Shown here piece after piece: positions 7,820 through 33,521 of a stretch of DNA of 64,000 nt. This stretch comes from Herbaspirillum hiltneri N3. Lineage in GTDB: Bacteria > Pseudomonadota > Gammaproteobacteria > Burkholderiales > Burkholderiaceae_D. The notes under the pieces were generated by a model, which searched no databases, was not told the DNA's origin, and was given only the letters and a program-made list of their open reading frames with translations. The position numbers were made by a program, and so were the translations under genes. The stretch is taken from NCBI RefSeq assembly GCF_001267925.1, contig NZ_CP011409.1, positions 3,906,001 through 3,970,000 of the forward strand, written 5' to 3'. Position 1 is the stretch's first letter; each line of letters starts with the position of its first letter.

Positions 7820-7986
7820 AAATTTCCGTTTAAATTAACCTTTGGTACCAATTCGTTAATGCACCCTACGCAACGAAAGCGGTATTCCTCGCATGAAAAA
7901 ATACCAATGCATTTAAGCCACACTATCGGTTGATGATTTTCACTGACACTCGAAAAACGATAGCAGGCCTACAGCGCCCTATCCTC

Positions 7987-8310
7987 TTACAAATTCTGAC
8001 TTCTCAATAAAATAAATTTACTTGCTTTTTGATTAATTCTTTTCTGCAAATCCAGCGAACGTGGCGTGTCATTGACGTACAACAAGATCGGATATTCTGG
8101 GAATTTCATTTCCACAGGTTCTTTATCAATAGGGTCCACATTTCTTTTTAGCACGAAATTTTCCTCAGTCCGCTTACCGAAAATGAAATACTCTCCTCCT
8201 TGATAAGCACTCTCTCTTGCCTGAAAATCAATATCGAAAGCAGCTTCTAAGGACGCTTTAGCCTCCTCGAGGTCAACAGATAAAATGCCGTAAAGGTCAT
8301 ACATTTTCAT
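7987..8310 (-). CDS. Candidate CDI immunity protein (107 aa)
   Basis: Begins three bases after the stop codon of the giant CdiA-type gene, with its ribosome binding site (AAGGTGA) inside the end of that gene. In CDI loci this is the invariant position of the immunity gene, which blocks the toxin tip of the neighbouring exoprotein by direct binding. The product is soluble, acidic and small (for example VDLEEAKASLEAAFDIDF near the N-terminus), as expected. It shows no family I recognise, which is normal because immunity proteins diverge with their toxins. Function is inferred from position. Confidence 0.7.
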   Translation of the reverse strand: MKMYDLYGILSVDLEEAKASLEAAFDIDFQARESAYQGGEYFIFGKRTEENFVLKRNVDPIDKEPVEMKFPEYPILLYVNDTPRSLDLQKRINQKASKFILLRSQNL

Positions 8311-8313
8311 ACT

Positions 8314-16114: not shown

Positions 16115-17908
16115 CTAGTAAGACCAATTCAGGGTAGCCAGCAACAAGGCGCTTCTCTTTTCCAGGTAGTCCGGTTGCTGCACGGGCCGCCCCAAGGTGA
16201 TTTCACTCGACCAGGCGTGCTTTGCTAGTTGCAGCTGCATGCGAACTCCGACTCCGATGCCGGACAGTTTTCTGGTGTGTTGTTCGGAAATCAGTTCAGT
16301 CATACCCGCATCAAAAAATGCATACGGCTCAAAATGGATGTCGCTCAACGTTGGCGCATTAGCCCAGATCACTTCATTTCTGGCGTACATGCCGCGGTCA
16401 CCGCTGATGCCACTTTCACGAAAGCCACGTACCGACGACATGCCGCCCACAAAAATCTGCTCTGAACCGAACAACGCTTGCTGCGTCCACTGACCACTCA
16501 CCTGAGTTCGCCAGGTGAACGCCGCTGCAGCAATAGAGGGCAATGCTGCCGTAATCGCCCCATTGACATCGAGCTTGGTGAATTGTCCGTGCGCTTCGCT
16601 GTCCTGAATCTGTGGACTGTCCTTGTTGGCACCGAAGGCACGCAAGCCTTTCGACACACCCGCTTCCAGGGTCAGCGTCGCCGGTTGCTGCCGCACCAGA
16701 AAGCGCAACAGCGTGTTGATGGCAACACGTAGTACGGTGAGTTTTTGCGGATCAAGCGTCAGGTTGTTGATGTCACGGTCGGCCCGGCGTAGCGACAAGG
16801 TCGTGTCGATGGCTGTCTTCGACGTCTGGCTGCGCGAGATGACGCGGTTCCAGCCCCAGGCGTTGCTCACGGTATTGCCATATAAGAGCGCGGTGTCGCC
16901 GATCAGTGACTGGTATTCGGAAACGGAGGCGGTGTAGCTGAAGGTGTTGTACCCAAAGGGAACCGAAGCCGATCCGACCAGAGCATTGGTCTCGCGGCTG
17001 CCGCTATAGTTGAACGACAGAATTTCCTGGAATCCCAACAGATTGTCGGCCTCCACGCCAAGACGCGTGCGGTTGAGTCCGGTCTGCTGACTGCCGTAGT
17101 TGTCGATGCCGGCACTAAACCACAGCCGATCCCCAACCTTGTTGTTGAGACCGATGACGGAACCTCCCGGCGAGCTGCCCGGCAAGATCTGCAACTCCGC
17201 CTTATTGCGCCGCATGCGGTTGATCTGCTCCACGCCCTGCTCCAGATCGGTCAGGTTGAGCAATTCTCCAGGCGCAGTAGGAAGCGCCATCTTCACCCCA
17301 ACGTCAGTCAGCCAACCACCGCTATCCGGCGATGCATCCAGCTTGCTCGGCGACAGCGCCTGACCATTGAGCTCAATAGACTCCACCTTGCCGGGCACGA
17401 AGGTGATCACCAGTACCCCCGAACGCAGATTCTGTTCGCCAAGATAAGCGCGTGTAGTAATCAAGCCATGCTTGACGAACGCCTCGGTAAATCGTCGCAG
17501 CAGCAAATTGATTCTGGCGCCGCCCAGGGCTTTATCGACAAAGGCTTGTGTGATCTGCTGCACTTCATCGTCCGGCAACACGGTGTTGCCGACAACATCG
17601 ATGTGATGGATCTGGAACGTCGGCCCTTTCTCCGGTACTTGCTCGACGTCGGTGACCACGTCGGGCGCCTTCGGCTCCGGCTTGGCAATCTCGATTTGTG
17701 GCGCCGGCTGCGTCGCTTCACGCTGCCGCTCGCGGTCGCGTTGTTCTTGCAGCAGGCGCTGCGCGGGATCTTGCTCGGGACGTGGAACCTGCGCATGCGC
17801 ACTGGTCATCGTGACGAATTCAATTGCAGCAACAACCGCCAAGTTGCGGATGAACCCGGGCATGGAGTTGTTACGTGACCTCATCATCGGATGCGCCAGC
17901 GTCACCAT
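16115..17908 (-). CDS. TpsB outer-membrane transporter (ShlB/FhaC/HecB family)
   Basis: The 597-aa product starts at ATG 17908, overlapping the stop of the upstream exoprotein gene (17902) by seven bases; the much longer open frame to 18109 reads backward through that gene and is not real. The order is: signal peptide ending TSAHA, a Gln/Arg-rich linker, a POTRA domain (FQIHHIDVVGNTVLP and GLITTRAYLGEQ), then the 16-strand barrel with the family motif VRGF (SSVRGFRESGISG). The C-terminus ends in aromatic Tyr (LNWSY), as in beta-barrel signals. It exports TPS exoproteins. As the only TpsB here, it probably serves both the 870-aa and the 2274-aa exoproteins. Confidence 0.93.
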   Translation of the reverse strand: MVTLAHPMMRSRNNSMPGFIRNLAVVAAIEFVTMTSAHAQVPRPEQDPAQRLLQEQRDRERQREATQPAPQIEIAKPEPKAPDVVTDVEQVPEKGPTFQIHHIDVVGNTVLPDDEVQQITQAFVDKALGGARINLLLRRFTEAFVKHGLITTRAYLGEQNLRSGVLVITFVPGKVESIELNGQALSPSKLDASPDSGGWLTDVGVKMALPTAPGELLNLTDLEQGVEQINRMRRNKAELQILPGSSPGGSVIGLNNKVGDRLWFSAGIDNYGSQQTGLNRTRLGVEADNLLGFQEILSFNYSGSRETNALVGSASVPFGYNTFSYTASVSEYQSLIGDTALLYGNTVSNAWGWNRVISRSQTSKTAIDTTLSLRRADRDINNLTLDPQKLTVLRVAINTLLRFLVRQQPATLTLEAGVSKGLRAFGANKDSPQIQDSEAHGQFTKLDVNGAITAALPSIAAAAFTWRTQVSGQWTQQALFGSEQIFVGGMSSVRGFRESGISGDRGMYARNEVIWANAPTLSDIHFEPYAFFDAGMTELISEQHTRKLSGIGVGVRMQLQLAKHAWSSEITLGRPVQQPDYLEKRSALLLATLNWSY

Positions 17909-20514
17909 AAGCCGCTTCCCACACCAAGATGATTCTCTATCGACACTGGATCGCGCCGCGGCGCACGCAAGGTCAAGATGCCGTTGGTAGCGACGATCTC
18001 CGTCATGCCGGCAAAACTGCCGCCATCGATGACGCCTTGTCCGTTCAAGGTCAGCTTGCTCCCCGCCAGCCACGAGCCGCCGGTGTCGGTCGCATACAAA
18101 CGCGCCCAACTACTGCCGAACCAGGTCTTCATGCCGCTTTGCGAATAGGCGCGATAACCCACCACGCCTTGCGCGTAGATGCGCGGAGCAGTCACGGTCA
18201 GGTTGCCCAGGGCAAGTACATCGCCACCAATGTTGGCCGCTTCCGTTCCCGCAGTGATGCTGATGTTGCCGCTGGCGGTGAGCGTACCGCCATGACTGGT
18301 AATCGTGCTGGAAGCGCTGGCGCTGCAAAAGATCATGCAGCTGCGCTGATAGTGTGCGCTGCCGTCGAACAAGGCTTCATTGTGAAAAGCGCCGGTCACG
18401 GCGATGTTCATGTTGCCGTTGTTGACCAGACCGATGCCGCCCTGATTGGTGAAATTGGCCGCTTGTACGTCGATACCGGTCTCTCCGACCAGATAAGCCA
18501 ACTGACTCGGCATGGTGACGACGCCATAATCGACGTCAAAGCCGGTATTGCGCCGCGTAAAAAACAACCACTGACTACTACTGTTGGCATAGGCGGCTCC
18601 TTGCTCGCCGTTGGCGCCCGGCGTCTTGTCGATGACGTTCACCACGTTTCCACCCGCCGTCAGCGACAAGCGATTGTTGCTGATCATGCGCGCATTGCGA
18701 TTGGTGATATTCCCAGCGGCCCGCACAACAACGTCGTCATTGACGCCAAAAATCGCACCCAATACGCTTTCCGACGGCGACTGATTGAACACGGAACCGA
18801 GCGCGGCCAAGGTCACGGCGCCGGTCGACGCGGCATTTCCTGCAATACGAACCTGCCCCTGAAGCAGGCTGCCGATGTTGCGAATATCACCACTGCTGTT
18901 GACCAACAGGCCACCGTTGGAAGCAACCACAGAACTATTCAGTTCGCCATCGTTGGATGCAGAGAATCCGGTGTTCTGCAAGATCACATTCTGCGCGGCG
19001 AAGACATCGGTTGCAGTCAATGTGGTCGTTCCCGCGCTGGTAATCAGAACGTCTCCCGTCAGTGATAGCGTCGCACTCTTGACACTTTGCTTGCCGTCGC
19101 TGCTACGTATCGCATTGGCAGTGAAACTGTTGGCGTTGACGACCACCCCTGTCGCGCCGTTGACCGACGAGCCCGACAACGTCACGGAATTGGTCGCGGT
19201 TGCGGTCACCGAACCTGTTTTGGATGTCAGACTGGCGCTGCTGCCAAGCGATGACGGTGTGCCTGCCGAAAGCGCGATATTACGGCTTTTGACGATCACG
19301 TCCTGCTCGGCGGACAACTGACTGGAATTGATCAACACTTGCTGGCCATCGTTATACAAACCGATGCCACCAGTAGCATCAAAGGTCGTGCGACTGAACG
19401 TCAGATCATGCAAACCCGCCACACCGTCGGTGCCGATTAGGATATTGCCGCGCTGTGTAACGATCACATTGCCACCGGCGTCAACTGCGCGTTGACCGGC
19501 ACTCAGATTGGCGTCCGTCAGTGCCACCTGTGCAGCGCTGATATCGATCGTGCGTCCGGCCTGGAGTGATGCTGCGACACCGTTATTGCTCTGGCTATCC
19601 ACCGACGCGTTGGCCACGACAATATCGTTCACTGCCTGGATGCGGCCACCGTCGACATGCAGGTCGCCATTGCCGGCAATCGTGAAGTCGCCCACATTGG
19701 CATAGATGGCCCCGGCATGCCGGACACCTGCGCCCTGCTCCGTGACCACGAGCTCCACCCGGCCAGCAGTCAAACTACCGAGGGCGGTGATGTCGAGCGC
19801 AGTCGCTCCTGGGTTGCTGGTGCCAGTCGCCGTATGCCCAATCCAGGTACTGATCAAGTCGGTCGGCGAGACGCTGCCGTCAATTTCCGAATGACTGGCG
19901 CCGGCCACCGTACGAATGCGCGCAGCGCTATTGCCGACAGTATTGAGGACTGCCCCGTTGACGGTGATTTGCTTGGCAATCAACTCCAGGTCCAACATGG
20001 CGCCGCTCAGGCCATTGGGACCGATCACGATCTGGCCCTGGGAGGTGTTCAGGATGATGTTGCGTTGTACGTTGCCCGGCGACAGCGTGATGTCGTTAAA
20101 ACTGACTTGTCCGGTGGTCAGGGCGACGTTGCCGGTATTGACGAAGCTGCCGCCGTTGACCGTGATGCCGTTGGGATTCGCAATGATCACATTGGCCCGT
20201 GAGCCGAGCACCGTGATATCGCCCTGAATCAGACTCGGGTTAGTGCTGGTGACCTGATTGACGATGTTGCGCGCATTGACGCCGACGTTGTTCAATATCG
20301 CGCCACCGGGACCGACATTGAACTCCGTGTAAGTATTGTGCGAAACACCAAACGCCGCTGGCGCAATGTTGACAGTCTGACGCGCGCCGCTCGTCGACAC
20401 GCTCGTTGCGGTGCCACCATCGACGACAATGCCCGCTGCATGTGCAATGGATGTTTGTAAAAGTGTCGCACCCACGACGACACGCCCCACGCGGGAGCGA
20501 AATGAAGACCCCAT
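17902..20514 (-). CDS. Short TPS exoprotein (filamentous haemagglutinin N-domain, 870 aa)
   Basis: Starts at ATG 20514; an in-frame stop lies just upstream, so no longer form exists. Signal peptide residues 1-26 (SIAHA). The TPS domain follows with NxxG-type motifs and NPNGI at residues 113-117, then beta-helix repeats. There is no VENN-like junction, DUF637 region or toxin tip, and the protein ends in VGSGLW, so it looks like a structural adhesin or pilot rather than a CDI effector. It is the first gene of the locus and overlaps the TpsB gene. It is likely the original partner of that TpsB, with the larger CdiA acquired or duplicated downstream (inference). Confidence 0.9.
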   Translation of the reverse strand: MGSSFRSRVGRVVVGATLLQTSIAHAAGIVVDGGTATSVSTSGARQTVNIAPAAFGVSHNTYTEFNVGPGGAILNNVGVNARNIVNQVTSTNPSLIQGDITVLGSRANVIIANPNGITVNGGSFVNTGNVALTTGQVSFNDITLSPGNVQRNIILNTSQGQIVIGPNGLSGAMLDLELIAKQITVNGAVLNTVGNSAARIRTVAGASHSEIDGSVSPTDLISTWIGHTATGTSNPGATALDITALGSLTAGRVELVVTEQGAGVRHAGAIYANVGDFTIAGNGDLHVDGGRIQAVNDIVVANASVDSQSNNGVAASLQAGRTIDISAAQVALTDANLSAGQRAVDAGGNVIVTQRGNILIGTDGVAGLHDLTFSRTTFDATGGIGLYNDGQQVLINSSQLSAEQDVIVKSRNIALSAGTPSSLGSSASLTSKTGSVTATATNSVTLSGSSVNGATGVVVNANSFTANAIRSSDGKQSVKSATLSLTGDVLITSAGTTTLTATDVFAAQNVILQNTGFSASNDGELNSSVVASNGGLLVNSSGDIRNIGSLLQGQVRIAGNAASTGAVTLAALGSVFNQSPSESVLGAIFGVNDDVVVRAAGNITNRNARMISNNRLSLTAGGNVVNVIDKTPGANGEQGAAYANSSSQWLFFTRRNTGFDVDYGVVTMPSQLAYLVGETGIDVQAANFTNQGGIGLVNNGNMNIAVTGAFHNEALFDGSAHYQRSCMIFCSASASSTITSHGGTLTASGNISITAGTEAANIGGDVLALGNLTVTAPRIYAQGVVGYRAYSQSGMKTWFGSSWARLYATDTGGSWLAGSKLTLNGQGVIDGGSFAGMTEIVATNGILTLRAPRRDPVSIENHLGVGSGLW

Positions 20515-20933: not shown

Positions 20934-20966
20934 CTAATAAAGCGTTTGGCCTTTCTTACAACATGC

Positions 20967-21335
20967 TGTTCCTTTGCTCGCAGCATTGACCCTATATAAC
21001 TGATCCACTTTCCATTGCCGAGCGAACGCGGCAACGCGATCATAAGAGCCTTCAAATCCCAACACACACAAGTCTGCGTGCATCTGCTTGAGACTGCGCT
21101 TTTGCTTCCTAGATTTGGTGGATTCGGTTTTAAGCCATGCGGATAGTTTGAATGTGTACACATCCAGAGCACTGGCTGAACGCCGGTCAGCGTTGGCTGG
21201 CTCTACAGTTTCAGAGCGCAGGTAACGTCTAACGGTGTTCCTGGAGATGCCAAGTCGCTTGGCGATCTCCCTTAGCGATATCTGGTCACGTAAGTGCCAG
21301 CGCCGAATAATTCCTAGTAATGCCTCGTCGATCAC
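20967..21335 (-). pseudogene. istA: Truncated IS21 transposase IstA
   Basis: ATG at 21335 begins MIDEALLGIIRRWH followed by a helix-turn-helix (ISLREIAKRLGISRNTVRRYL), which is the IstA N-terminus. Family similarity continues through QWKVDQLYRVNAASKGT at about residue 123 and then stops abruptly; the final ten residues before the stop (ending QTLY) are not IstA sequence. The DDE catalytic domain is absent, so the gene cannot encode an active transposase. Confidence 0.85.
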
Positions 21336-21440
21336 TCCAATCTCCTACCTGATTGCTTAGGTAGGATTGTGTCTCAAACGTGGGTCAATTTTCGATGCAA
21401 AATTCCCAGCAAAGTGGGTCAGTTTTCGATGCAAAACTAC
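20967..21440 (-). mobile_element. IS21-family remnant (one end plus truncated istA)
   Basis: The terminal region holds two 23-bp direct repeats of GTGGGTCA(A/G)TTTTCGATGC at 21380-21402 and 21414-21436, the multiple-repeat ends typical of IS21 elements. Inside lies the N-terminal part of IstA. The rest of istA, all of istB and the other end are missing. Confidence 0.8.
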
Positions 21441-21500
21441 AAACAACGGTTAAAAAGCACTTTGCGTAAAAGAATCGTTAGTCCCTTTTACGTCTGAGCG

Positions 21501-21780
21501 TCAGCCTCGTAGAAACTCGTAGAATTTTTTTTGATATTGGTGGGTTAACTTGGCTTTTAGCAATGATAGTGGCGGTTTCGCGTTCGCCTGCGATGATGCA
21601 AAAATATCAATCTGTGCCAGCACATGGAATACCCGACTGTCACAGACAGGGTGCATGATAGGTCCTATTTTTGTGATGACGGGACTTTTGCCAGACCAGG
21701 ATTTCATTTCGGAAATCATTGGAAAACGGCCGCGTGATTTTTTTATAATCGCCAATAGAAAAGCTGAAGCTATCCGTCAT
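21501..21780 (-). pseudogene. Small gene downstream of HNH nuclease, frameshifted in an A7 run
   Basis: An ATG at 21780 overlaps the TGA of the HNH gene (ATGA), the same coupling seen across this operon. That frame reads MTDSFSFSIGDYKK and then meets a run of seven A. Past the run, the protein-like sequence continues in the +1 frame (SRGRFPMISEMKSWSGKS ... LTHQYQKKFYEFLRG) to a stop at 21501. With six A the whole would be one frame of about 92 aa. The span of 280 nt equals 93 codons plus one base, as expected for one extra base. This could be a mutation, a slippery or phase-variable tract, or a sequencing error. No family recognised. Confidence 0.55.
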
Positions 21781-22892
21781 GGCGCAGTTCCTGCTTTTAC
21801 GATTGGCTCAAACAGCCCCACCGTTTTGCAGCCGTGAAGGAAGCCATTTTTTAGGAAATTGGCATTAGCATAGGGGGATTTTAGGGTGTGACGGGCCACA
21901 TCTCGCAAATATTCATCAGGTTTCTTACCCTCTGCGCCGGCGGTGTCGTCGCTCCAGCGCCACTCATCAAGCACTTCGACGAGCCACGCTTTGCCGTCAC
22001 CACCAAGCAGTTTTCCTCGATACCTTTCCACAATTCCGTATACATCCTTCCATGTATCAATTTGTTCGGCGATGTTTGGTGGGCCAAACGCCAAATTGAT
22101 ATCCGTTGCTGTCAGATTTTCAATGTCCGCGTGTCGCAAAGTTATCTTTATATCGACGACGTAAGGTAATGTTGAGAAAGGGTAAAAAGCCTTACGGCGA
22201 ACAAACGCGCCGGCAGGGTCTTTTGGTGTGTATCTCGGATCTTTGCGGCCCTTGTAGCTGCTGTTGCAGTGGTGGCAGGCAGGGACGAGGTTCTTAAAGT
22301 TGATGGAATTGAATGGGTACAGCACCTTGGGGAGATAATGGTCGTACGCTTCGCGCTTACTGTGATACTCCCCCAGCAGATCATTGATGCCGCAGAATGG
22401 GCATTTGCTCGTTTTGTTGACGGTCACAAAGGCTTTGTAGTGATCATTAATGGTGCCGACCTTGGCTTTAATATCGGAAGCATCGAAGTCATAAAGGTCT
22501 GAAAAAAATATGCGAAGGTCTTTGAGTAACGTGGGATATTTGCGCTCGATGTCCTTGTAATGCGCTGGATGGAGTGACTGATCGTTGGCACAGAGCCGCT
22601 CAATATCATTGTTGCTGAAGTACCACCATTTCAACCTACGAATCTGTTTTAAATTCAGGTGAGTGAAATGGCCGTAGATTCGTTCAACGTTGCCATAGAA
22701 AAAATCAGCATTCTTCTTGTCAGAGTAAAAAAATTTCTTCATGACTTCAAATAACTCAGGATTGCCGCTACACGAGTTGAATGAGAAGTTGATCTCGGGA
22801 GTTGCCTTGCACCACACTTCGTGAAAAATGAAGTCGATAAAGGTCTGCATCTTCTCCATCTGGTGTGGCACGTAGGTATAAGGAAACAGCAT
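21777..22892 (-). CDS. HNH endonuclease, partner of the AAA ATPase in the RM operon
   Basis: The 371-aa product has an N-terminal helical half with no recognised domain and an HNH module at residues about 164-215: CPFC (164-167), DHYLPK (184-189), the asparagine-bearing NLVPACHHCN (201-210). The zinc-binding Cys pairs and DH catalytic pair are intact. It overlaps the ATPase gene at one base (ATG within the stop region, 22892). An SMC-like ATPase followed by an HNH nuclease is the layout of the PtuA/PtuB (Septu) defence pair, and similar pairs occur as accessories of type I restriction operons. The assignment as a Septu-like effector is inference. Confidence 0.82.
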   Translation of the reverse strand: MLFPYTYVPHQMEKMQTFIDFIFHEVWCKATPEINFSFNSCSGNPELFEVMKKFFYSDKKNADFFYGNVERIYGHFTHLNLKQIRRLKWWYFSNNDIERLCANDQSLHPAHYKDIERKYPTLLKDLRIFFSDLYDFDASDIKAKVGTINDHYKAFVTVNKTSKCPFCGINDLLGEYHSKREAYDHYLPKVLYPFNSINFKNLVPACHHCNSSYKGRKDPRYTPKDPAGAFVRRKAFYPFSTLPYVVDIKITLRHADIENLTATDINLAFGPPNIAEQIDTWKDVYGIVERYRGKLLGGDGKAWLVEVLDEWRWSDDTAGAEGKKPDEYLRDVARHTLKSPYANANFLKNGFLHGCKTVGLFEPIVKAGTAP

Positions 22893-24694
22893 CAGTCTTT
22901 CCTCCCCCCATTACCAGGATCGTAACTATCGAGAATGGCCGTGATCAGTAGCACCTTTTCTACAGAATCGCCGAGTTTTTGGTGGATTTCGTTGATGAGC
23001 GCGTCCTTGTCCTCACCACCGTTCTCAAACCGCCCACGCAAGCCATCGAGAACTTCCTGCGCTCGCCCGCCGATAGTTTCGCGCTTGCCAAAGGTACTCA
23101 TGGTGATCTTGTTGATCGAGGCGCCCAGCGTGTTGTAGTGTGGTGGGTTAATTCTGACTTCACCGGTAGACTTGTCTTTCTCGAAGACCAGTACCTTGTC
23201 AGGTTTACTGTCTGAGATTAAGAATGGCGAATGCGTCGTAATCAATATTTCTTGGCCAACATTGTCATTAGCCTTGTCTGGCAAACACCGGCGCAAGCGA
23301 CTGATGAAATTAGCTCGCCAATCAGGATTGAAATGGGTCTCCGGTTCGTCTAGAAGGAAAAGACTATTTGTATTACGAAACAGTAGACTCATCCCAAGAC
23401 TATGCAATAGCTGATGCTCCCCATCCGACAATCCTTTCAGCATCATCGGTTCAGTCACATCCTGCTTGATAAAGCGGACAAACTTGAAACGCATGATGCG
23501 CTGATCTGATGCCAATCTAGGCACAGTCTCGCTGACGTAGTGACTACCTGAACGATAGACATCCTCCTTGAGCCCTTCAGCCACTGCATAAAGATTTAGC
23601 GTCAGCAAGACCTGAAATGCTTGGAACAATGCGAGAGGTGATTTGTAAAATGCATAATCGAAGTTTTCGCGAAATGCCTCACGTGCTTCCTGATTTACCC
23701 AGTAGTCTAGAACCAGAGTATCTGTAGTTTCATCTTCGTACCAGCATGTAGCGCAACGCTTCAACCGCGTAACAATTGGGTCAAAATTATCAGCCGATTT
23801 TGAATCAGCCTCTAATAAGTGCATCAGGTTGATTCTGAATTCACCGGTCTCATTGTCCGTCATCAATGCAGGATGATCGCTGCCGAATATTGTGGCCACA
23901 TCGGATGAGGCCGTAATGCTGCGTCGAATGACTATGCGAAACTCAAGCAAAGCTTCGATACCCACATCCTCGCGGAAAGGCTGTAAGGCGTCATCATCCT
24001 GTAGCAACAGATTGCACAGCAGAATAGCTTGGCTGAATTCGCTATCAAGGTAGGCTAAGCGAGATTCTGGTCGGCCAAGATAGGGCAGTTGCTCCTTTAG
24101 GCAATTCCAATATTCATCAAATTGCACGAAACGCATTTTGAAGAAGGGTAAACTGAGGATCTCGTTTTCGCCCGAGGAATAGCCCAAAACATACTCCGGC
24201 AAAAGAAATTCCCGCTCGCGCTCACTGCACAAACCATCGGAAGCAAGACCGTCACTACGAGTGACAAAATTTTCTGGATTCAACCAATACATCTGAGGTG
24301 ACGTCTCACTTACCTTGATCACTCGAACGTGGGCATAGCGTTCGCGCTCGGGTAAAGCGCCATGAGGCAGCATTATCAGGTATTCCAGTTCAAACGCATT
24401 CGGGGTGCCGTCACTGTCTTTAATTCCATTTGGATTGTCATCCGAGGCAAAAGCGTCTGGTAAAAAATTACGGCGCACGCGCTGCACCTCCAGTTGGAAG
24501 AAGATCGCCGCAAGCGCTTCGAGCAGATTGGATTTGCCGCTTCCGTTAGGGCCGGCGCAAACAAAAGGCGCGAAGCCTTCGGAGTTGTCCAGTTCGGCCT
24601 GCAGGTCAAGTTCACTGCGAAAGTAATGTACAAAACCGCAATGCAGGCTGCGAAAGCCCGCTGGATCCGTAATTTTGAGACTTAGCAGTTTCAA
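22892..24694 (-). CDS. Restriction-system-associated AAA family ATPase
   Basis: The 600-aa product is an SMC/OLD-type ATPase: Walker A GPNGSGKSN at residues 48-56, a long divergent middle, then Walker B and signature region LFLLDEPETHFNPDW at about 445-459, and a conserved ITTHSPFL switch at about 485-493. It matches in layout the ATPases known as 'restriction system-associated AAA family ATPase' and resembles PtuA of Septu. It overlaps hsdS by four bases (ATGA) and is followed by the HNH gene, so it is translated with both. It probably senses DNA ends or the state of the RM complex and gates the HNH nuclease (inference). Confidence 0.87.
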   Translation of the reverse strand: MKLLSLKITDPAGFRSLHCGFVHYFRSELDLQAELDNSEGFAPFVCAGPNGSGKSNLLEALAAIFFQLEVQRVRRNFLPDAFASDDNPNGIKDSDGTPNAFELEYLIMLPHGALPERERYAHVRVIKVSETSPQMYWLNPENFVTRSDGLASDGLCSEREREFLLPEYVLGYSSGENEILSLPFFKMRFVQFDEYWNCLKEQLPYLGRPESRLAYLDSEFSQAILLCNLLLQDDDALQPFREDVGIEALLEFRIVIRRSITASSDVATIFGSDHPALMTDNETGEFRINLMHLLEADSKSADNFDPIVTRLKRCATCWYEDETTDTLVLDYWVNQEAREAFRENFDYAFYKSPLALFQAFQVLLTLNLYAVAEGLKEDVYRSGSHYVSETVPRLASDQRIMRFKFVRFIKQDVTEPMMLKGLSDGEHQLLHSLGMSLLFRNTNSLFLLDEPETHFNPDWRANFISRLRRCLPDKANDNVGQEILITTHSPFLISDSKPDKVLVFEKDKSTGEVRINPPHYNTLGASINKITMSTFGKRETIGGRAQEVLDGLRGRFENGGEDKDALINEIHQKLGDSVEKVLLITAILDSYDPGNGGRKD

Positions 24695-26265
24695 GGCCGA
24701 GCTCCGCGCTTAATTTCTATGAGATTGCCAAAAATCGGTTCCCCACTTTCGTCACGCCCTGTAATGTTGCGCGATTGCTGGAGGCGACCATCGGTCAGAG
24801 TTTCGAACACCCAGGTTTTTACGTACTCGTAGTCGTTAGCGCCCAGCTCGAAGTCGGTTTCCGGATGCAGTTCCGCCAAGCGGGTTTGCGCAGCCGCCAT
24901 GAAGCGCTGTACCGAAAACGGCATGCTGCCCAATTGGCTATGATAGGCTTCCAGCCATTGTGTGATCAGTGCGTTTCTTGCATCGACATTCTCAATGGCA
25001 TTGAGTAAGTTATCGGTATCGGGCAGATAGATGGCAAGGCTTTCGTCAGCGCGAGCCGGCAAGGGTTCTGCATCCACGGTTTTCTCTTTCTCTAGTCTTA
25101 TGTCCGGCAAGGGCACGTGCGACAAATTCAGTTCACCCTTGAATGCCTGCTGGCTCAGCGCGCCATAGAGGACTTCCAAATTGGTTAGGCTTTGCTGATA
25201 GTGAGTCTTGATGCCTTCAATTTTTTCGACGACAATTGCAAATTGATTTTGAAGATCAATTGGGGGCTTGATCATCTTGATCAGCTCGAAATCCCCTTTG
25301 GTCAAAATCTTCTTCATTCCTTTCGTGGCTTGACTCTGTATATAAGGCCGGGAGAATCTAAACAAGCTATACAGATATAACGGATTGACGTCCTTGCCAG
25401 GTTGGATGGCATTAATCTGCTGATTAAAAGCCACTGTTCTGTCAGTCAACGCTGCACGGCCAATTGACTCCACGCTGCCTGCGATGCAAGCAACCAGCAA
25501 TGCCCCACTTGAGATGGTTCGACCACGCCGAGCCCCTGTCTCTGAGAGATGCTCGGCAGACGGCGTGACGAAAACGGCATCAGCCGTAATGTTGTCGGTT
25601 TTGATCCACTCGATGAAATCGTCGCCGTAATTTGTGGAGTCATTTCTTGGTGGCGTATTGCCCGTGGAAATTTTTCCGAAGGCCTTCAGTTCGGTCTTAT
25701 CCCACCCTTTCTCATTTCTCACTGGATCTCCAAACATCTCCAGAAATACGCTCTCGAGCAGGTCGTGGAGCTGTTGCAGGTGGCGTTTGCGCTGGGCGAT
25801 CAGTTTTTCCACTTTGCCAAGCAGGTTGGCAATACGAATTTGGTCGTCGAGCGGAGGGAGGGGTATTTCTACTTTCTTTAAAGTGTCTTGCGTAATAGCT
25901 TTGAACGTCGAGCCTGTACCTAATTTTGCAATCGTCTGCTCGTTTGACTTCAAAAAAAAGTAAAGAAAATCAGGGTCTAGAATTGAGCTCGCTCTAATCG
26001 CCGCCAACCCACGGCCGATGATTGATTTCTGATCACAAATATTCACTGAGCCAACTGGTGCTCGAACAGACATAAGGATGTCGCCTGGTTTGGCTTCTTT
26101 TGCTTTTAGACTGTTACACCAGAGACGAACTCGTGGGTACTTTTCCTGAAAATCTGTCTTCCCTTGAAAGAAAGGCAAACCATCGCCCTTTGAGTTGTAC
26201 GTTGACGAGGGCGGCGATTGTCCAGCGATGATCTTTGCGACGGTATGGAGTTGCTGCTTCTTCAT
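24691..26265 (-). CDS. hsdS: Type I restriction specificity subunit HsdS with C-terminal extension
   Basis: The 524-aa product contains two target-recognition domains separated by the conserved helix: TRD1 covers residues 1-170 ending in IPLPPLDDQIRIANLL, TRD2 about 190-380 ending in IKPPIDLQNQFA, each followed by a long helix that sets the spacing of the bipartite site. Beyond residue 400 comes an extra region of about 115 aa (ending TDGRLQQSRNITGRDESGEPI) that normal HsdS proteins (about 400-450 aa) lack. It overlaps hsdM by four bases and the ATPase gene by four. The extension may dock the ATPase/HNH pair (inference). Confidence 0.9.
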   Translation of the reverse strand: MKKQQLHTVAKIIAGQSPPSSTYNSKGDGLPFFQGKTDFQEKYPRVRLWCNSLKAKEAKPGDILMSVRAPVGSVNICDQKSIIGRGLAAIRASSILDPDFLYFFLKSNEQTIAKLGTGSTFKAITQDTLKKVEIPLPPLDDQIRIANLLGKVEKLIAQRKRHLQQLHDLLESVFLEMFGDPVRNEKGWDKTELKAFGKISTGNTPPRNDSTNYGDDFIEWIKTDNITADAVFVTPSAEHLSETGARRGRTISSGALLVACIAGSVESIGRAALTDRTVAFNQQINAIQPGKDVNPLYLYSLFRFSRPYIQSQATKGMKKILTKGDFELIKMIKPPIDLQNQFAIVVEKIEGIKTHYQQSLTNLEVLYGALSQQAFKGELNLSHVPLPDIRLEKEKTVDAEPLPARADESLAIYLPDTDNLLNAIENVDARNALITQWLEAYHSQLGSMPFSVQRFMAAAQTRLAELHPETDFELGANDYEYVKTWVFETLTDGRLQQSRNITGRDESGEPIFGNLIEIKRGARP

Positions 26266-27965
26266 CCTACCATCCCCCGCAACTCCAGCAGCTCGCGCAC
26301 GATGCCTCTCTGCACCTTAGCAAGATCTTCTTCGCTAGCATCACCCACCTCGGCCTCGAGCAGTCGATCTAAAATCAGCGTCGGGGCGTCGTAGTGAACT
26401 TCTTCGAACACATCTTGCTTATAGCGGGAGAGTCCAAGGTCATAGCCATCCTCAGCTTCGATCTCAGTACGCGGCACCATGAAGCACTTTGCAGTACGGT
26501 CGATGCCTGTATCGATCTTGCGAGCGTGGTACTTGGCAATGATGTCCTGCAGATCACCAAATCCCTCTTCCTTGTCACGTTTGTCGTTCAAGGTATAACC
26601 GTCAGCGGTCATCTCGTAAAACCAGACGTATTCAGTAGCGGGCTGGGTGACTTTGTCTTTCGGCCCCCACACCTTAGTGAATAAGAGGATAGCGGTGCTG
26701 ACCCCGGCATAGGGTTTGAACACGCCGCTAGGCAACGTGATAACAGCTTTAAGGTCGCAACGCTCGACCAGCATCTGGCGCAAGGTCTTGAAGGCGCCGC
26801 CAGAACCAAACAGCACACCTTGCGGCACGATTACGCAAGCGGTGCCGCCTTTCTTTAGCAGCCGATAGATATTCTCGACGAACAGCAGCTCGGTCTTAGT
26901 AGTACCCAATTGAAGACTTTCGTTGATGTCGCCTTTGTCGATGCTGCCGGTAAAGGGCGGATTGGCCATCACGATGTCGTACTCGGACTCTTCGATAAAA
27001 CTCTTGCTCAGCGTGTCCTTGTAGTCGACGTGCGGCTCATCAATGCCGTGCATCATCAGATTCATCAGCCCCAGGCGCACCATCGTGGCGTCAATATCGT
27101 AACCCCACAGCGAGCTGGACAGAATGGCCTGGGCCTTTTCGGTGAGGGCAGCCGCGACCGAGGTCCGCACAAAGCCGTCTTCATCGGGTGTGAGGCCCGT
27201 GGTGCCCGCCTTGACGGCGAGTTGGGTGACGATGTACTGATAAGCCCCTAGCAAAAAGCCGCCGGAGCCGCAGGCCGGATCGGCGATCTTGTGGCCCAAT
27301 TGAGGCTGCACCAGATCTGCCATCATCTTGATGATGTGGCGCGGGGTGCGGAACTGACCGTTCTTGCCAGCAGTTGCGATCTCCGATAGGAGCATCTCAT
27401 AGACATCGCCCTGGATGTCTTGGAAGGCTTGGCCGTTCTCCCGTGAGTCGCGTTCCATCACTTCAAAAATTTCGTCGATGGTCTTTACCGCTTCCACCAG
27501 CAGGGCCGGCTTGGGAATGATGAACACGGCGTTCTTCATATGATGGGTGAAGTTGGAGTCGGCACCGTTCAGATCTTTTAGGAACGGAAACACCTTGCCT
27601 TGCACATGCTGCAGCATTTCTTCGGCTTGCATATGCGTGAATTCGCTCCAGCGCAACGTGCGCTTTTCGATTTCATACATCTTGGCATCGGCGTGACGTT
27701 TGTCGGCTTCTTTCGGAGTGTCATCATCTCTTGCTTTGGAGCGATATTCGGGAGGAATCCATTTTCCTTCGAATTTTGAGATGTACTTTTCGCCAGTGAA
27801 TTCAGCATCGGCCTGTTTTTTTTGATCCAGCTCGTCGAGCCGCTTCATGAATAGTAGATAAGTAATCTGCTCGATGGCGGTGAGCGGGTTGCTAATGCCT
27901 CCACTCCAGAATTTGTTCCAGAGCTGGTCGATCTTGCTTTTGAGTTCGGAGTTATTTTGTAGCAT
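26262..27965 (-). CDS. hsdM: Type I restriction DNA methyltransferase HsdM
   Basis: The 567-aa product is an N6-adenine methyltransferase: HsdM N-terminal helical domain (residues 5-150), SAM-binding motif DPACGSGG at 229-236, and catalytic motif IV NPPF at 335-338. With HsdS it methylates one adenine in each half of the bipartite recognition site and protects host DNA. Start at ATG 27965; hsdR ends 31 bp upstream. All key residues are present, so the methylase should be active. Confidence 0.95.
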   Translation of the reverse strand: MLQNNSELKSKIDQLWNKFWSGGISNPLTAIEQITYLLFMKRLDELDQKKQADAEFTGEKYISKFEGKWIPPEYRSKARDDDTPKEADKRHADAKMYEIEKRTLRWSEFTHMQAEEMLQHVQGKVFPFLKDLNGADSNFTHHMKNAVFIIPKPALLVEAVKTIDEIFEVMERDSRENGQAFQDIQGDVYEMLLSEIATAGKNGQFRTPRHIIKMMADLVQPQLGHKIADPACGSGGFLLGAYQYIVTQLAVKAGTTGLTPDEDGFVRTSVAAALTEKAQAILSSSLWGYDIDATMVRLGLMNLMMHGIDEPHVDYKDTLSKSFIEESEYDIVMANPPFTGSIDKGDINESLQLGTTKTELLFVENIYRLLKKGGTACVIVPQGVLFGSGGAFKTLRQMLVERCDLKAVITLPSGVFKPYAGVSTAILLFTKVWGPKDKVTQPATEYVWFYEMTADGYTLNDKRDKEEGFGDLQDIIAKYHARKIDTGIDRTAKCFMVPRTEIEAEDGYDLGLSRYKQDVFEEVHYDAPTLILDRLLEAEVGDASEEDLAKVQRGIVRELLELRGMVG

Positions 27966-27996
27966 GCGCTCAATTCCTTGGGTTTATATGGGGGCG

Positions 27997-30792
27997 TTAT
28001 GCGGCCAGTCGCTCAGTGAGCTGCAGGATTTCATCGATTTCGGCCGGACTGAACACGCCGCGGATGCCCTGCGGATGAATGACCGTAAAAGGCGTGTTGA
28101 TGAGGTCCCGTTTTTCCACCTTTTCGCGCTCAACGATAAAGCTCTTCAGCAATCCCAGAAACTCCAACTGGCGACCGTTAAGGGTGGCGTGCGTGCGGAT
28201 GAATCGATCAAAAGCTGCGCTGACCGTATCGGGAAAACTTTGTAGCACCTCGATGCCGAGAATGTGGCGAATGAATTGAATCAAGTGCGCTTTGCGGTTT
28301 TTGTAGACTAGGCGCAGCAGGGCTTCGGTGATGTGCGGATGCTCCTCATGCAGTAGCTCGGCCAGTTCGTTGGCTTCCTGGGTGCTCACAACTTCACCGG
28401 TTTTGATCTTCTGCAGCACCGGGTTGTGCTCTGTGAGTTCGACGATCAAAGCCGCGACCATTTCGCGGTAACGACTGACGCTAACGGCCTCGTGCTGTGG
28501 CCCGAATTCCACCCATTCCTTCTTGTGAAGTTCATCCTTCAGATCAAGATGCGTTTGCTCTTGAGTGGAGCTTTGTTCGCGAAACTTCATCAGAGGGCCG
28601 AGCTTGACGACCATGTCGTCGAAGGCCTCTTCATCCGCTTTTGCCCAATAATAGTTGGTTTGGGCGGCGCGGATCAGAGCTTCTTCCTGCTTCACGAAAC
28701 CGACCGAGAGCGGCAGTTCGCTAATCTGTTCGATGATGCCTTCCTTGATGGTTTCGGCTTGTTCCTTTTCTTCGTTGAGCAGGGCGAGGGAATATTCTAG
28801 AAGGTCGCGTTCAAAGCGCATGGCTTTGAAGTCGGCTTCCGAAACGGTGCGAAACAGCGGTTTGATTTCGGCGCGCAGGAACTCCAGCTTCTGGTGGTTG
28901 AGTATGTTCCAGAAATTTTCTTCTCGGAGACGGTTCAGCGCTGCTGCTGCCTCCTTGATGACTACGGAGGTTTGCGGCAAGGTGTTGAGCTGCAAGTGCA
29001 GTTTTTTGGTTTCGCGTTCGGCAATTTCGTGATGGCCGCCATCTATGGCTTTTTCGATCTTGTCCAGCCGCAAGCCAACAAGACGGACAGGCAAAGGTAG
29101 CTGTGGTTTGAGTTTCTTACCTTTGGGGTTCAGCTTGAAGTATTCAAAATTGTCCCAACAATCAAGAATCAGGAACACGTCCTTGTCCGTACACCAGGGC
29201 TTGGGTTTACTGGTTTCCAGCAAACGCGTACCGCGCCCCACCATCTGCCAAAACTTAGTGTAGGAATACACTGGCTTGGCGAACACAAGGTTAACGATCT
29301 CGCGCACGTCGATACCGGTGTCGAGCATGTCCACACTGATAGCAACGCGCGGCATATCGCTGTTGGTAAATTGATCCAGCAAACCGCCCTTGCCATAAAC
29401 GCGCGGATCATCGGATACGAGTACCTTGGCCAACTCACCTTTGTGCTGCGGGTAGAGCTTGTCGAAGATTTCTTCCATGCGCCGGGCGTGCGCCTTGGTA
29501 GTGCAGAAAAAGATGGTCTTGCCGGGTAGTACTCCGTTGGAATCCTTGATGGATTCCTCCATGAACTCCCTGACGATTAAGGTGTTGGTGCCTTTGTTGA
29601 TCACCTGCTTTTCTAACTGCGAGCCTTCGAAGTTGATTTCTTCAACTTCTTTACCTTGTAGAATTAGTTTTTTCTGGTCGTCCAATGAAATGGTGCGCTT
29701 GCTTATACCTTCAATCTGGAACTTAGTCTGAATTTTCATGACCTGAAAGTTAGATAGGTAAGGCGGCACGTTGTTCACGGCCTCTTCATAAGTGTAGGCA
29801 AAGGTCGGTAAGCCATCTTCGCAATGGAAAAGTTTAAAGGTATTGTGATCAATGATGTCGGTAGGTGTTGCAGTCAAACCAAGCGTGATGGTTTTGAAAT
29901 AGGCGAGCACTTCGCCGTAGCTGTTGTAGATTGAGCGGTGGCTCTCATCTACAACGATGAAGTCGAAGAAGTGTGGCGACAAATGCTGCGCCTCGTCACG
30001 AATAATGTTGAGCATCGTCGGGTACGTAGCAACATAGATGCGACGATCTTTGGCAATCAGTTTCTCACCAACATTGGGCCAGCGCGGTTCGTTGGGCAGA
30101 TATTCCTTGAAAGCGGCCAGCGCCTGCTCGCGCAGTGCAATACGGTCCACGAGGAACAGGATTTTCTCGGCGTGGCCAGCGCGCATCAGCGTATCGACCA
30201 TGGCTATGCAGGTACGGGTTTTGCCGGTACCTGTGGCCATCACCAGCAGGAAATCGCGTTTTTTCTGCTCTATGCCTTCGAGCACCGAACGAATCGCACG
30301 GATCTGGTAGTCGCGTCCCGCAATCGAAGTGTTGATGACCTCTTGCGTCAGTGGTTTGCGGTTGCGGCGGATATAGGCGAAACGCTCCAGATCGTCCCGC
30401 GTCGGAAAGCCCATGACCTTGCGTGGCGGGGCGTTTTCAAGATCCCAGAAATAGATGTCGTGGCCATTGGTGTAGAAGCAGAACGGCAGTTCACCTCCCT
30501 GCTTCTGGATGTTGTAGCAGTATTGCTTGGCCTGCTCGCGGCCTATGGCGGCATCCCGGCTGGATTTTTTGGCCTCAATCACGGCTACAGGCTTGCGGTC
30601 TTTACCCAGCAAGACGTAATCGCTGAACTGGTGACCATCGTAGGGGGGGGCAGACTCTGCAGCACCTCGCGGCAAAGCCGTTAGAATGTCGAATTCTTCT
30701 ATCACCTGCGTAGGGTCTTTGACGTTCCAACCAGACTGCGCAAGCTGCTGGTCAATGAGGTCAAAACGGGTTTGTGCCTCGGATTTGCTCAT
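27997..30792 (-). CDS. hsdR: Type I restriction endonuclease subunit HsdR
   Basis: The 931-aa product is the motor and nuclease subunit. An N-terminal PD-(D/E)xK nuclease has VIEAKK at 71-76; the helicase has Walker A ATGTGKT at 186-192, DESHRS at 282-287 and GLTATP at 305-310, then a second RecA domain with VGRGTRL and an EcoEI-type C-terminal domain. Family members translocate DNA using ATP and cut far from the site when it is unmethylated. The gene overlaps the small HTH gene by four bases. A run of eight C in the coding strand falls at residues 48-50; the frame is intact here. Confidence 0.95.
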   Translation of the reverse strand: MSKSEAQTRFDLIDQQLAQSGWNVKDPTQVIEEFDILTALPRGAAESAPPYDGHQFSDYVLLGKDRKPVAVIEAKKSSRDAAIGREQAKQYCYNIQKQGGELPFCFYTNGHDIYFWDLENAPPRKVMGFPTRDDLERFAYIRRNRKPLTQEVINTSIAGRDYQIRAIRSVLEGIEQKKRDFLLVMATGTGKTRTCIAMVDTLMRAGHAEKILFLVDRIALREQALAAFKEYLPNEPRWPNVGEKLIAKDRRIYVATYPTMLNIIRDEAQHLSPHFFDFIVVDESHRSIYNSYGEVLAYFKTITLGLTATPTDIIDHNTFKLFHCEDGLPTFAYTYEEAVNNVPPYLSNFQVMKIQTKFQIEGISKRTISLDDQKKLILQGKEVEEINFEGSQLEKQVINKGTNTLIVREFMEESIKDSNGVLPGKTIFFCTTKAHARRMEEIFDKLYPQHKGELAKVLVSDDPRVYGKGGLLDQFTNSDMPRVAISVDMLDTGIDVREIVNLVFAKPVYSYTKFWQMVGRGTRLLETSKPKPWCTDKDVFLILDCWDNFEYFKLNPKGKKLKPQLPLPVRLVGLRLDKIEKAIDGGHHEIAERETKKLHLQLNTLPQTSVVIKEAAAALNRLREENFWNILNHQKLEFLRAEIKPLFRTVSEADFKAMRFERDLLEYSLALLNEEKEQAETIKEGIIEQISELPLSVGFVKQEEALIRAAQTNYYWAKADEEAFDDMVVKLGPLMKFREQSSTQEQTHLDLKDELHKKEWVEFGPQHEAVSVSRYREMVAALIVELTEHNPVLQKIKTGEVVSTQEANELAELLHEEHPHITEALLRLVYKNRKAHLIQFIRHILGIEVLQSFPDTVSAAFDRFIRTHATLNGRQLEFLGLLKSFIVEREKVEKRDLINTPFTVIHPQGIRGVFSPAEIDEILQLTERLAA
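30643..30650. repeat. G8/C8 homopolymer inside hsdR
   Basis: Eight G on the plus strand (eight C in the hsdR coding strand) encode the end of Ala and two Pro at residues 48-50. Homopolymers of this length near the 5' end of restriction genes are classic slippage sites for on/off phase variation; here the frame is on. Confidence 0.6.
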
Positions 30793-31022
30793 GCTTTACC
30801 TGCCTCTGGCACAGCTGTGTGATTTACGTTTCTGCGTTCCAAATCTTCATCCGCCCCACCCACGCGCACCCACTCATCGACCTCGGACAATTGGAATTTC
30901 CACAGGCGGCCAATCTTATGCGCGGGCAGCCCCTTGCGCTCACGCCAGCGGTAGACGGTTTCTTTTACCACGCCCAAGTGCTGAGCAACTTGTTCGGTAG
31001 TGACCCACGGTTCAGTGTTCAT
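30789..31022 (-). CDS. Excisionase-family helix-turn-helix protein in the RM operon
   Basis: The 77-aa product carries a MerR/excisionase-type HTH: WVTTEQVAQHLGVVKETVYRWRERKGLP at residues 6-33, followed by the wing KIGRLWKFQLSEVDEWV. It is the first gene of the RM operon and overlaps hsdR by four bases. Small DNA-binding proteins in this position often act as control proteins for restriction genes, but the fold is also that of recombination directionality factors. Control of the operon is more likely given the coupling. Confidence 0.85.
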   Translation of the reverse strand: MNTEPWVTTEQVAQHLGVVKETVYRWRERKGLPAHKIGRLWKFQLSEVDEWVRVGGADEDLERRNVNHTAVPEAGKA

Positions 31023-31146: not shown

Positions 31147-31332
31147 ATGGCGGGCAAAGATGCAGGTATTTCAGAGCAAAGCTACTACCGCTGGAAGAAG
31201 GAATACGGCGGCCTTAAGGTCGACCAGGCTAAGAAGTTGAGGGAGCTTGAGCGAGAGAATGCAAGGATGAAGAAGATCGTGGCAGATCTGTCGTTAGAGA
31301 AGTCCATACTCAAGGAAGTCGCCTCGGGAATG
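31147..31332 (+). pseudogene. Fragment of an IS3-family OrfA
   Basis: The frame encodes GISEQSYYRWKKEYGG followed by the leucine-zipper stretch DQAKKLRELERENARMKKI and ILKEVASGM, which is the typical C-terminal half of IS3-family OrfA. The N-terminal helix-turn-helix part and all of OrfB are absent, and similarity stops at about 31332. It is the remains of a transposition event next to the RM operon. Confidence 0.75.
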
Positions 31333-31844
31333 CGTGTATTCACGTATCAAGTACATCGCAAAGCATTCCTTCCATCAAGTGTCACAAGGGCAAAAGGGCG
31401 ACAACATGCCGAGAGCCCGTTATCTTTTATCGACGTGCCGCGCTATTGCATCATGCAGAGCGCGCGCAGAAGATCATCAACACTTCCCAATAACACAGCT
31501 CGACACTCTCGAATGTGTGCTGGCAGTTCCTACTGCCATGTCAAAGTTTGGCCGTTTTTTCTGACGTGTTGTTAACTATCTGTTGATTTGCTCGCAGAAT
31601 TGCCCCGTCCAATTGATTCACTTCTAACGTCCGGCAAAGGCTGCGACACGGATCGTACGATCCCTCACAAGGTGTTGCGTGAGATGTTTAAACGCCTAGA
31701 TATCTCTCGCCATGGGGCCTGGTGTGTCTCAAATGGTCAGTTTTCGGTAAAATCTCCACGGCATGGACACCTGGACAGATTGTTCGATGTCATCGATAAA
31801 ATTCGTTAACGTTTGCACTCAGCTAACCAAGAACAAGGACACTC
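31333..31844. other. Degraded mobile-element debris
   Basis: About 510 bp without a gene I can support. At 31723-31752 a sequence starting TGTGTCTCAAATGGTCAG and ending GTAAAA resembles the IS21-type end at 21369-21402, in the same orientation but with small deletions. The rest shows no coding frame with protein-like composition. Confidence 0.4.
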
Positions 31845-32297: not shown

Positions 32298-32519
32298 AAT
32301 GCTAAGCATCCCATCTGACCGGGTTAGACACATGGGCAGGTGGGGAGATCGGATTCAATTGCTCAGTATTCCGAACTGATCGAAAAATGTTAAACGCTAC
32401 AGTTTCTAACCTTGTGCTCAAGGTCACTTCATCCGGTCGCTGAACCGCCAGCGAATGGATCTCGTCAGCATGCATGGCGTTTGCGATCGGTATTTATAAA
32501 TCCAAATATAAACAAAGCA

Positions 32520-33521
32520 ATGCTACGAAACAAATCCCCTCTTGAAACATTAGCATTAAGTACCGCAGAAAAATTCCGTAAGGACTATGTTGACCTTAGT
32601 CGAATGCTCTTCGCGTCTGATCAAGCTCGCAATGGCTTGCATCATCCCGGCGAATTTGGACGTTACAGAGAAAATTTAATTCGCAAGTTATTGGCGTCTT
32701 TTCTACCCGCCCGCTTGGGTATTGGTGATGGCTTCGTTGTCTCAACTGACGGAAGCACGAGTAGTCAATGTGACATAGTTCTTTTCGAGCGTGACGCTAC
32801 CCCGTTACTCGAGATTGCTGGCGGTCGGGCTTTATATCCTGTTGAAACCTGTGTTGGTATCGGGGAAGTAAAATCAGTTCTAGATTTTTCAGATCTTAAA
32901 TTATGTTTATCAAAATTGATGGACGTGAAAAAAATACGCCACCAGATGACGCCGTTTGGATTGCCGGTTGCTCCAATTGACGCAGTTGCTGCCGTTGCGT
33001 TGATGGCATCGAACGGGGAGAAAGATGAAATTTTAGGTGAGATGTTTAACGAGCGAATCTTTATTGAAAATTTGGTCGAAAACAATTTCAATCCGGATTA
33101 CTACGAGCAGCACAATTTGGTTTCCTTTCTGGTGTGCGAAAAAATAAATTGGCCTGCTAACTGTGGCCCCACTTCACGCCGGTTTGGTGAAACATTAAAT
33201 GATCTTTATGAACCGAGGCTCAAGGATTTTCCAATTCGGCATAATTTTATTTTGAGTATTGAAGACGGTTTCTTATCGTACTACTTCACGCAAGAAGATG
33301 CCTCAGGGGAAGTCCGATCTATACCTTATTCGTTTCCTCGACATGAAGAATCGGATTGTGGATGGAGGTGGTTATCGGCTGATAACGATAATCAACACAT
33401 CTTGACATTTGCAGCCGAAATGGCGATTGCAGCGTCAGCGACGTGGGTATATCAATTTAGCTCGAAAGCACATTCAACTTCTCCGCGAGGTTTCGAATTT
33501 CAATTTTACCCACTGAGTTAA
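32520..33521 (+). CDS. Predicted PD-(D/E)xK nuclease-like protein (DUF6602 type)
   Basis: Start at ATG 32520 gives 333 aa; the open frame from 32412 has an atypical leader. After a helical start, HHPGEFGRYRENLIRKLL and LPARLGIGDGFVV lead to CDIVLF (residues 84-89) and PVETCVGIGEVKS (108-119). The D...E-x-K spacing fits the restriction-endonuclease fold, and the whole is the pattern of DUF6602 proteins found in defence islands. The remaining 210 residues are unassigned. No partner is obvious. Catalytic activity is inference. Confidence 0.65.
   Translation: MLRNKSPLETLALSTAEKFRKDYVDLSRMLFASDQARNGLHHPGEFGRYRENLIRKLLASFLPARLGIGDGFVVSTDGSTSSQCDIVLFERDATPLLEIAGGRALYPVETCVGIGEVKSVLDFSDLKLCLSKLMDVKKIRHQMTPFGLPVAPIDAVAAVALMASNGEKDEILGEMFNERIFIENLVENNFNPDYYEQHNLVSFLVCEKINWPANCGPTSRRFGETLNDLYEPRLKDFPIRHNFILSIEDGFLSYYFTQEDASGEVRSIPYSFPRHEESDCGWRWLSADNDNQHILTFAAEMAIAASATWVYQFSSKAHSTSPRGFEFQFYPLS

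Follow-up and report, generated by a model that had tools for sequence, protein, structure and literature searches.

The 64-kb stretch of Herbaspirillum hiltneri N3 considered here (contig NZ_CP011409.1, positions 3,906,001-3,970,000; hereafter the window, in whose coordinates all positions are given) carries a minus-strand operon of six intact-looking genes in the order HTH (helix-turn-helix), hsdR, hsdM, hsdS, ATPase and HNH. Judged by its sequence, the locus is a type I restriction-modification operon: it encodes HsdM, HsdS and an HsdR that has both nuclease and translocase domains. ATP-dependent restriction and methylation are its predicted activities. The last two genes encode a PtuA-like ATPase and a PtuB-like HNH nuclease. 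On balance, we think that the methylase-specificity core of this operon serves two effectors, HsdR and a docked ATPase-HNH pair. The genes are as follows.

30789..31022, minus strand: HTH, 77 aa, small DNA-binding protein of the HTH_17/excisionase type (PF12728, E 2.3e-16)
27997..30792, minus strand: hsdR, 931 aa, type I restriction translocase/nuclease (HSDR_N, ResIII, EcoEI_R_C)
26262..27965, minus strand: hsdM, 567 aa, N6-adenine methyltransferase (N6_Mtase, E 1.6e-56; HsdM_N; PADLOC MTase_I, 543 bits), with the motifs DPACGSGG and NPPF
24691..26265, minus strand: hsdS, 524 aa, specificity subunit with two Methylase_S stretches
22892..24694, minus strand: ATPase, 600 aa, PtuA-like, of the ABC/SMC type, restrict_AAA_1 (TIGR04435, 782.5 bits)
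21777..22892, minus strand: HNH nuclease, 371 aa, PtuB-like, with the motifs CPFCG, YDHYLPK and NLVPACHHCN

Association of the ATPase-HNH pair with hsd genes

A reading of this DNA made from the letters alone (the sequence-only reading) had placed the six genes on a single strand, which the sequence confirms. The junctions, too, measure as it described them: 4-base overlaps at HTH/hsdR, hsdM/hsdS and hsdS/ATPase, a 1-base overlap at ATPase/HNH and a gap of 31 bp between hsdR and hsdM. In 63 of the 70 loci in which this junction was measured, ATPase and HNH overlap by the same single base, which puts the arrangement beyond chance.

The sequence-only reading had also proposed that co-occurrence of HNH with hsdRMS and the ATPase be checked across genomes. 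Genome contigs were scanned with an HNH alignment and the resulting 80 loci, which by their titles belong to Pseudomonadota, Desulfobacterota, Bacteroidota, Cyanobacteria, Nitrospirota and others, were annotated with profiles in six frames. The HNH protein has at least 300 aa in 70 of these loci; an ATPase was seen in 68 of them, and the other two start at a contig edge. Where 2.2 kb or more of upstream sequence is available, the ATPase adjoins the full-length HNH gene in every locus (64/64); with at least 9 kb, ATPase, hsdS, hsdM and hsdR are all present, again in every locus (49/49). In the remaining ten loci HNH is shorter than 300 aa. Four of these keep the ATPase (L028, L080, L083, L084), and the short ATPase-less HNH genes of the other six (L073, L075, L076, L079, L081, L085) look, from their sequences, like relics. 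Among 72,556 plasmid records, four have the ATPase and the same four have HNH; hsdM and hsdS are present in all four, with hsdS split in one (L002). In 54 loci from the HNH search or the plasmids, HsdR identity is 63-90% across a length of more than 800 aa. The HTH gene lies outside the conserved core: a relative was detected in nine loci besides the own genome (one of the nine, L097, duplicates another locus). Its product is likely a regulator.

The converse question was approached with HsdR as the starting point, in searches of 369, 392 and 399 genomes, the own genome being counted in each. These gave 14 loci at 65-100% identity, own included, of which two (G1222, G1363) run off their contigs. 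Six of the 12 readable loci have the ATPase-HNH pair (G000, G719, G920, G951, G1047 and G1237; hsdM is split in G951) and six lack it (G555, G813, G1185, G1214, G1304, G1378). Among the latter, hsdS is missing from G1185, G1378 combines a stop in hsdR with a broken hsdM, and G813 is a scar. Below 65%, HsdR identity falls directly to 42% or less; four such matches were set aside, three at 35-37% and G1282 at 42%, which likewise stands with a distant ATPase-HNH pair. The pair is thus found with hsd genes in 49 of 49 loci with full-length HNH and enough flank when HNH is the query, but in only 6 of 12 readable loci when HsdR is: it follows this hsd branch, and the branch does not depend on it. 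The link is one-sided. The ATPase family itself was unsuited to such a census because it is too rare: in 398 genomes of the phylum, TIGR04435 gave two matches above cut-off (own and G302) and four at E 1e-40.

These counts bear on the possibility that the pair is an independent Septu system, a mere defense-island neighbor in the hsd operon that works alone. Septu in its canonical form consists of two genes. PtuA and PtuB profiles match the ATPase and HNH, and other effectors use the same place in the operon (see below). Furthermore, on two viral contigs (L121, L122), where no hsd gene was detected, a small HNH relative comes after a distant PtuA-like ATPase; these resemble a more ordinary Septu-like pair. 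However, wherever the flank sufficed, each full-length HNH of the present family lay within an hsd operon (49 of 49), and the partial genes that do lie outside (L073, L076, L079) resemble truncated relics. An HsdS domain whose presence goes with that of the ATPase, described in the next section, also argues against independence, which we consider quite improbable. In other viral sequence, the operon itself occurs as a close copy on one contig (L120 and L123 are the same contig) and as a more distant copy on another (L124); scans of viral sequence with HNH alone and with the HsdS domain found nothing, and the ATPase had no match in 50,697 phage records.

The HsdS extension and the exchangeable slot

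The HsdS protein of this operon continues beyond its conserved part into a C-terminal extension.

24694..25146, minus strand: HsdS C-terminal extension, HsdS residues 374-524, a linker followed by a winged-helix-like domain

We measured the length of HsdS after a conserved AFKGEL motif, which is present in 62 of 82 ATPase loci. The tail is 116-278 aa long in 61 of these and 42 aa in one. In five readable loci without the ATPase it is 8-48 aa, and in two more it is about 15-19 aa by eye. A profile of the domain made 71 matches among 12,830 open reading frames, every one of them in HsdS. By this profile, 68 of the 80 distinct loci with the ATPase have the domain, and it is intact in none of the seven readable ATPase-less loci; 38 of the 68 had been used in training, leaving 30 that are independent. 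In one locus without the pair (L098) a frameshift lies within the domain. When HsdR and HsdM distances were controlled for, distances of the HsdS domain and of the ATPase remained correlated (partial r 0.25, p 0.004, 33 loci). The idea that the domain was copied from the C-terminal domain of HsdR was rejected (profile comparison probability 0.1%). The extension comes and goes with the ATPase-HNH pair, and this suggests that both weapons may share a single sensor. We propose the winged-helix-like domain as a dock for the ATPase.

The slot after hsdS is exchangeable. In L075 it holds a PDC-S06 ATPase (972.9 bits) that directly follows and overlaps hsdS; in L092 and L102, PDC-S46 ATPases (757.3 and 758.5 bits) overlap hsdS in the same way; and in L081, from Nitrosomonas sp. 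Nm132, a UG5-nitrilase reverse transcriptase (6961-10002, 1059.7 bits) overlaps hsdS by 4 bases, a reverse transcriptase defense gene embedded within a type I operon. HsdS lacks the winged-helix-like domain in all four of these loci. A truncated HNH gene still stands at the downstream end of L075 and L081, its YDHYLPK histidine lost in L075, and we take these relics as traces of an ATPase-HNH module that has been replaced.

Extra genes are also found at two fixed places elsewhere in the operon: between hsdR and hsdM (L009, L012, L013, L029, L051, L052, L064, L070, L071, L085, L091) and between hsdM and hsdS (L008, L015, L039, L053). Ten inserted genes were scanned and encode Bro-N, KilA-N, RhuM, RhuM-Fic, YhcG/DUF1016 and Schlafen-AlbA_2 proteins. 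They may be regulators or further effectors.

Loci without hsdR and the mode of action

Judged by a match to the ATPase region, 96 of 5,426 complete Escherichia coli genomes carry the pair. A matching hsdR is present in ten E. coli genomes and the HNH allele of that type in 11, while a second HNH allele is found at 99% identity or more in 85. In 85 genomes, a 1.5-kb stretch that leads into hsdM without hsdR is present over 80% or more of its length; presumably these are the same 85, the numbers alone having been compared, and they probably stem from a single event. Three hsdR-less E. coli loci were read, two with intact hsdM, hsdS, ATPase and HNH and one with a split hsdM. No hsdR remnant was found in them, and a dissimilar hsdR may be present elsewhere in the genome. 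In a further E. coli genome only ATPase and HNH are left, beside an IS3 element; hsdR, hsdM and hsdS are gone and the ATPase start is clipped, so this ATPase may be dead. Outside E. coli, the plasmid loci L003 (Priestia) and L005 (Hymenobacter) contain hsdM, hsdS, ATPase and HNH with no hsdR in view. In L094 (genome G050), a locus with rearranged genes and a split ATPase, hsdR is likewise missing from the vicinity. Consequently, the pair is probably a second effector on the methylase-specificity core and not only a back-up for a failed HsdR.

The same loci bear on a different mode of action, that of a PrrC-like guard, which corresponds to the back-up role suggested in the sequence-only reading and in which the ATPase-HNH pair would be silenced by the intact restriction complex, fire upon its inhibition by a phage, and kill or arrest the cell. 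There are precedents for such behavior. According to PMC12707154, PrrC is a known guard within a type I operon and PARIS is a guard composed of an ATPase and a nuclease; and, according to PMC11555353, a retron PtuAB deprived of its retron partners arrests growth and depletes tRNA-Tyr. That the slot after hsdS is also taken by other ATPase-type effectors is in keeping with this idea. However, if HsdR held a latent toxin in check, a loss of hsdR should not be tolerated, and therefore the 85 E. coli genomes with an hsdR-less junction before hsdM and the two plasmid loci count against it, as does, for what a clipped ATPase can tell, the E. coli genome that keeps the pair without the rest. We regard a guard of this kind as rather unlikely.

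In the two-effector reading that we favor, HsdR would be the classical effector of the methylase-specificity core, and we infer the following course for the other. The C-terminal winged-helix domain of HsdS would dock the ATPase onto the M2S core, and the HNH protein would ride on the ATPase in the manner of PtuB on PtuA. An encounter of the core with non-self DNA, or its blockage by a phage anti-restriction protein, would change the state of the ATPase, and HNH would then be released or activated. It might cut phage DNA or tRNA, and the infection would be stopped. More tentatively, the methylase-specificity core could be a shared sensor platform with exchangeable effectors after hsdS, restriction being carried out through HsdR, through ATPase-HNH or, in the hsdR-less lineages, through ATPase-HNH alone. 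In the present version of such a platform, HsdS would have evolved its winged-helix dock for an SMC-like ATPase to which a PtuB-type nuclease is attached. Type I restriction enzymes count as some of the oldest bacterial immune systems known, and one of their branches can carry a second nuclease pair. Should the HsdS tail indeed dock the ATPase, a Septu-type effector would come under the direct control of methylation-based recognition of self and non-self, and one could regard the slot behind hsdS as a socket that accepts effectors of unknown function. Because E. coli has hsdR-less loci in nature, the question of a second effector is within reach of a laboratory species.

Known relatives, the operon end and its surroundings

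The sequence-only reading had recognized in the pair the layout of Septu PtuA/PtuB and in the ATPase an intact Walker A and DEPE motif. Both observations hold. A PtuA-type ATPase is followed, with overlap, by an HNH PtuB, and PADLOC models match at 1.2e-49 for PtuA (167.6 bits) and 2.8e-9 for PtuB. GPNGSGKSN and LLDEPETH can be read in the ATPase, and Walker A, SDGEHQLLH and LLDEPETH are strongly conserved across 73 aligned ATPases; its Pfam-type matches in the family scan are AAA_21 and AAA_15. The HNH protein had no Pfam match and a weak one to TIGR02646 (18.6 bits). Its profile matched no PDB chain by sequence and Foldseek alone gave none at E 0.001. PtuB surfaced in a second structural comparison (99 chains aligned), and the Z score, the coverage and the gap to the next entry in that comparison are the grounds on which we call the fold PtuB-like. 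In contrast to Septu and the effector pair of retron I-A (Ec78), the proteins of this operon fall far below the NCBIfam cut-offs (PtuA, 41.7 of 500 bits; TIGR02646, 18.6 of 52.15 bits). The HNH protein has 371 aa compared to 211-224 residues in the matched chains, and the pair is bound to hsdRMS rather than standing alone or with a reverse transcriptase.

The ATPase lies well above the TIGR04435 cut-off of 300 bits, and that family is named 'restriction system-associated AAA family ATPase', in line with the sequence-only reading, which had called the class restriction-associated. The NCBI name links the ATPase to restriction and is silent on the HNH partner, the HsdS domain and slot exchange; no paper was found in a literature search for the accession or for the phrase 'restriction system-associated AAA'. 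Like EcoprrI with PrrC, the operon is of type I with an embedded nuclease effector, but PrrC is a single protein and a tRNA-Lys anticodon nuclease, whereas here there are two genes, an HNH motif and a marking HsdS domain. No anticodon nuclease was among the matches listed in the family scans. The ATPase matches the AriA profiles of PARIS (1.1e-18), and no match of its partner gene to TOPRIM, as in AriB, was among those listed. Proteins of MADS, the methylation-associated defense system, are matched weakly by the HTH, methylase, ATPase and HsdS-like products, all below the NCBIfam cut-offs (MAD1, 63.3 of 80 bits, for the HTH protein; MAD2, 119.6 of 720; MAD3, 30 of 420; MAD5, 28.6 of 400). A 2026 survey describes OLD-ABC ATPases with nucleases, HNH included, near BREX and BREX-related loci as a likely back-up effector layer, and names Krishnan et al. 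2020 as one source on restriction-modification-like systems; the survey treats BREX and related loci, whereas the present operon is of type I (PMC12839542). Listings from the open-access literature, in which Krishnan et al. 2020 is not included, showed nothing on the HsdS domain, on the exchange of the slot with its HNH scars or on an hsdR-less lineage. We put forward the HsdS domain, the slot exchange and the absence of hsdR as new, the link of the ATPase to restriction being already known; the hsd-ATPase-HNH arrangement as such may have been published.

Downstream of HNH, the operon ends in two further features.

21446..21776, minus strand: non-conserved remnant that contains most of the small-gene frames; no homologue found, and no DNA match in 99 other relatives
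20934..21445, minus strand: IS21-like end with truncated istA (77.3 bits, under the 160-bit cut-off), closing the operon downstream

The sequence-only reading had counted a frameshifted small gene here as a seventh member. A 46-codon ATG frame lies at 21780-21640, and the 84-aa TTG frame of that reading is present at 21501-21755. Among 127 other loci, no convincing counterpart of either frame turned up: the best E value was 0.12, and five matches on the same strand within 1.5 kb after HNH have E values of 0.14-6.7 over 15-78 aa. The 46-aa frame had no match in 72,556 plasmids (phages were not part of the search) and no candidate among 5.8 billion proteins, in a search that reaches only proteins similar in length. 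When the DNA of the stretch was compared with the own genome and 100 relatives, with up to the four best candidates scored per genome, only the IS21 end recurred; the sole part repeated in relatives is 21386-21445, beside the istA fragment. A true third component, such as an immunity or adaptor peptide frameshifted in this strain, might be argued for on two grounds: its ATG and the HNH stop share 4 bases (ATGA), like other junctions in the operon, and some same-strand frame of at least 60 aa lies shortly after HNH in 27 of 78 loci. However, those 27 are of mixed families, several of them RhuM-like by eye, and no homologue of the frame itself was found, which mostly refutes such a component and makes it extremely improbable. 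On this sequence evidence we treat the small frame as a remnant between HNH and the IS21 end, outside the system. The conserved core therefore has five genes (hsdR, hsdM, hsdS, ATPase and HNH) instead of seven. The sequence-only reading is confirmed in part in what it observed and supported in part in how it interpreted this.

The G+C content is 46-56% across 21-31 kb of the window compared to 55-59% across 14-20 kb, and an HNH DNA query reported no match among 99 other relatives, which fits an operon acquired from elsewhere. An IS3-type transposase fragment (31147-31575, plus strand) immediately upstream of the operon and a phage-type integrase gene (41045-42013, minus strand) suggest an island. 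Divergent to the operon, at 32412-33521 on the plus strand, a DUF6602 protein matches PADLOC PD-DExK (4.7e-29) and NucC models and is a possible further defense gene. Downstream, at 16115-20514 on the minus strand, the translations read as an FhaC-like secretion protein and a haemagglutinin-like gene. The E. coli copy of the operon in L089 is likewise close to a haemagglutinin/FhaC-type locus, and a CBASS operon and genes of an integrative element accompany it.
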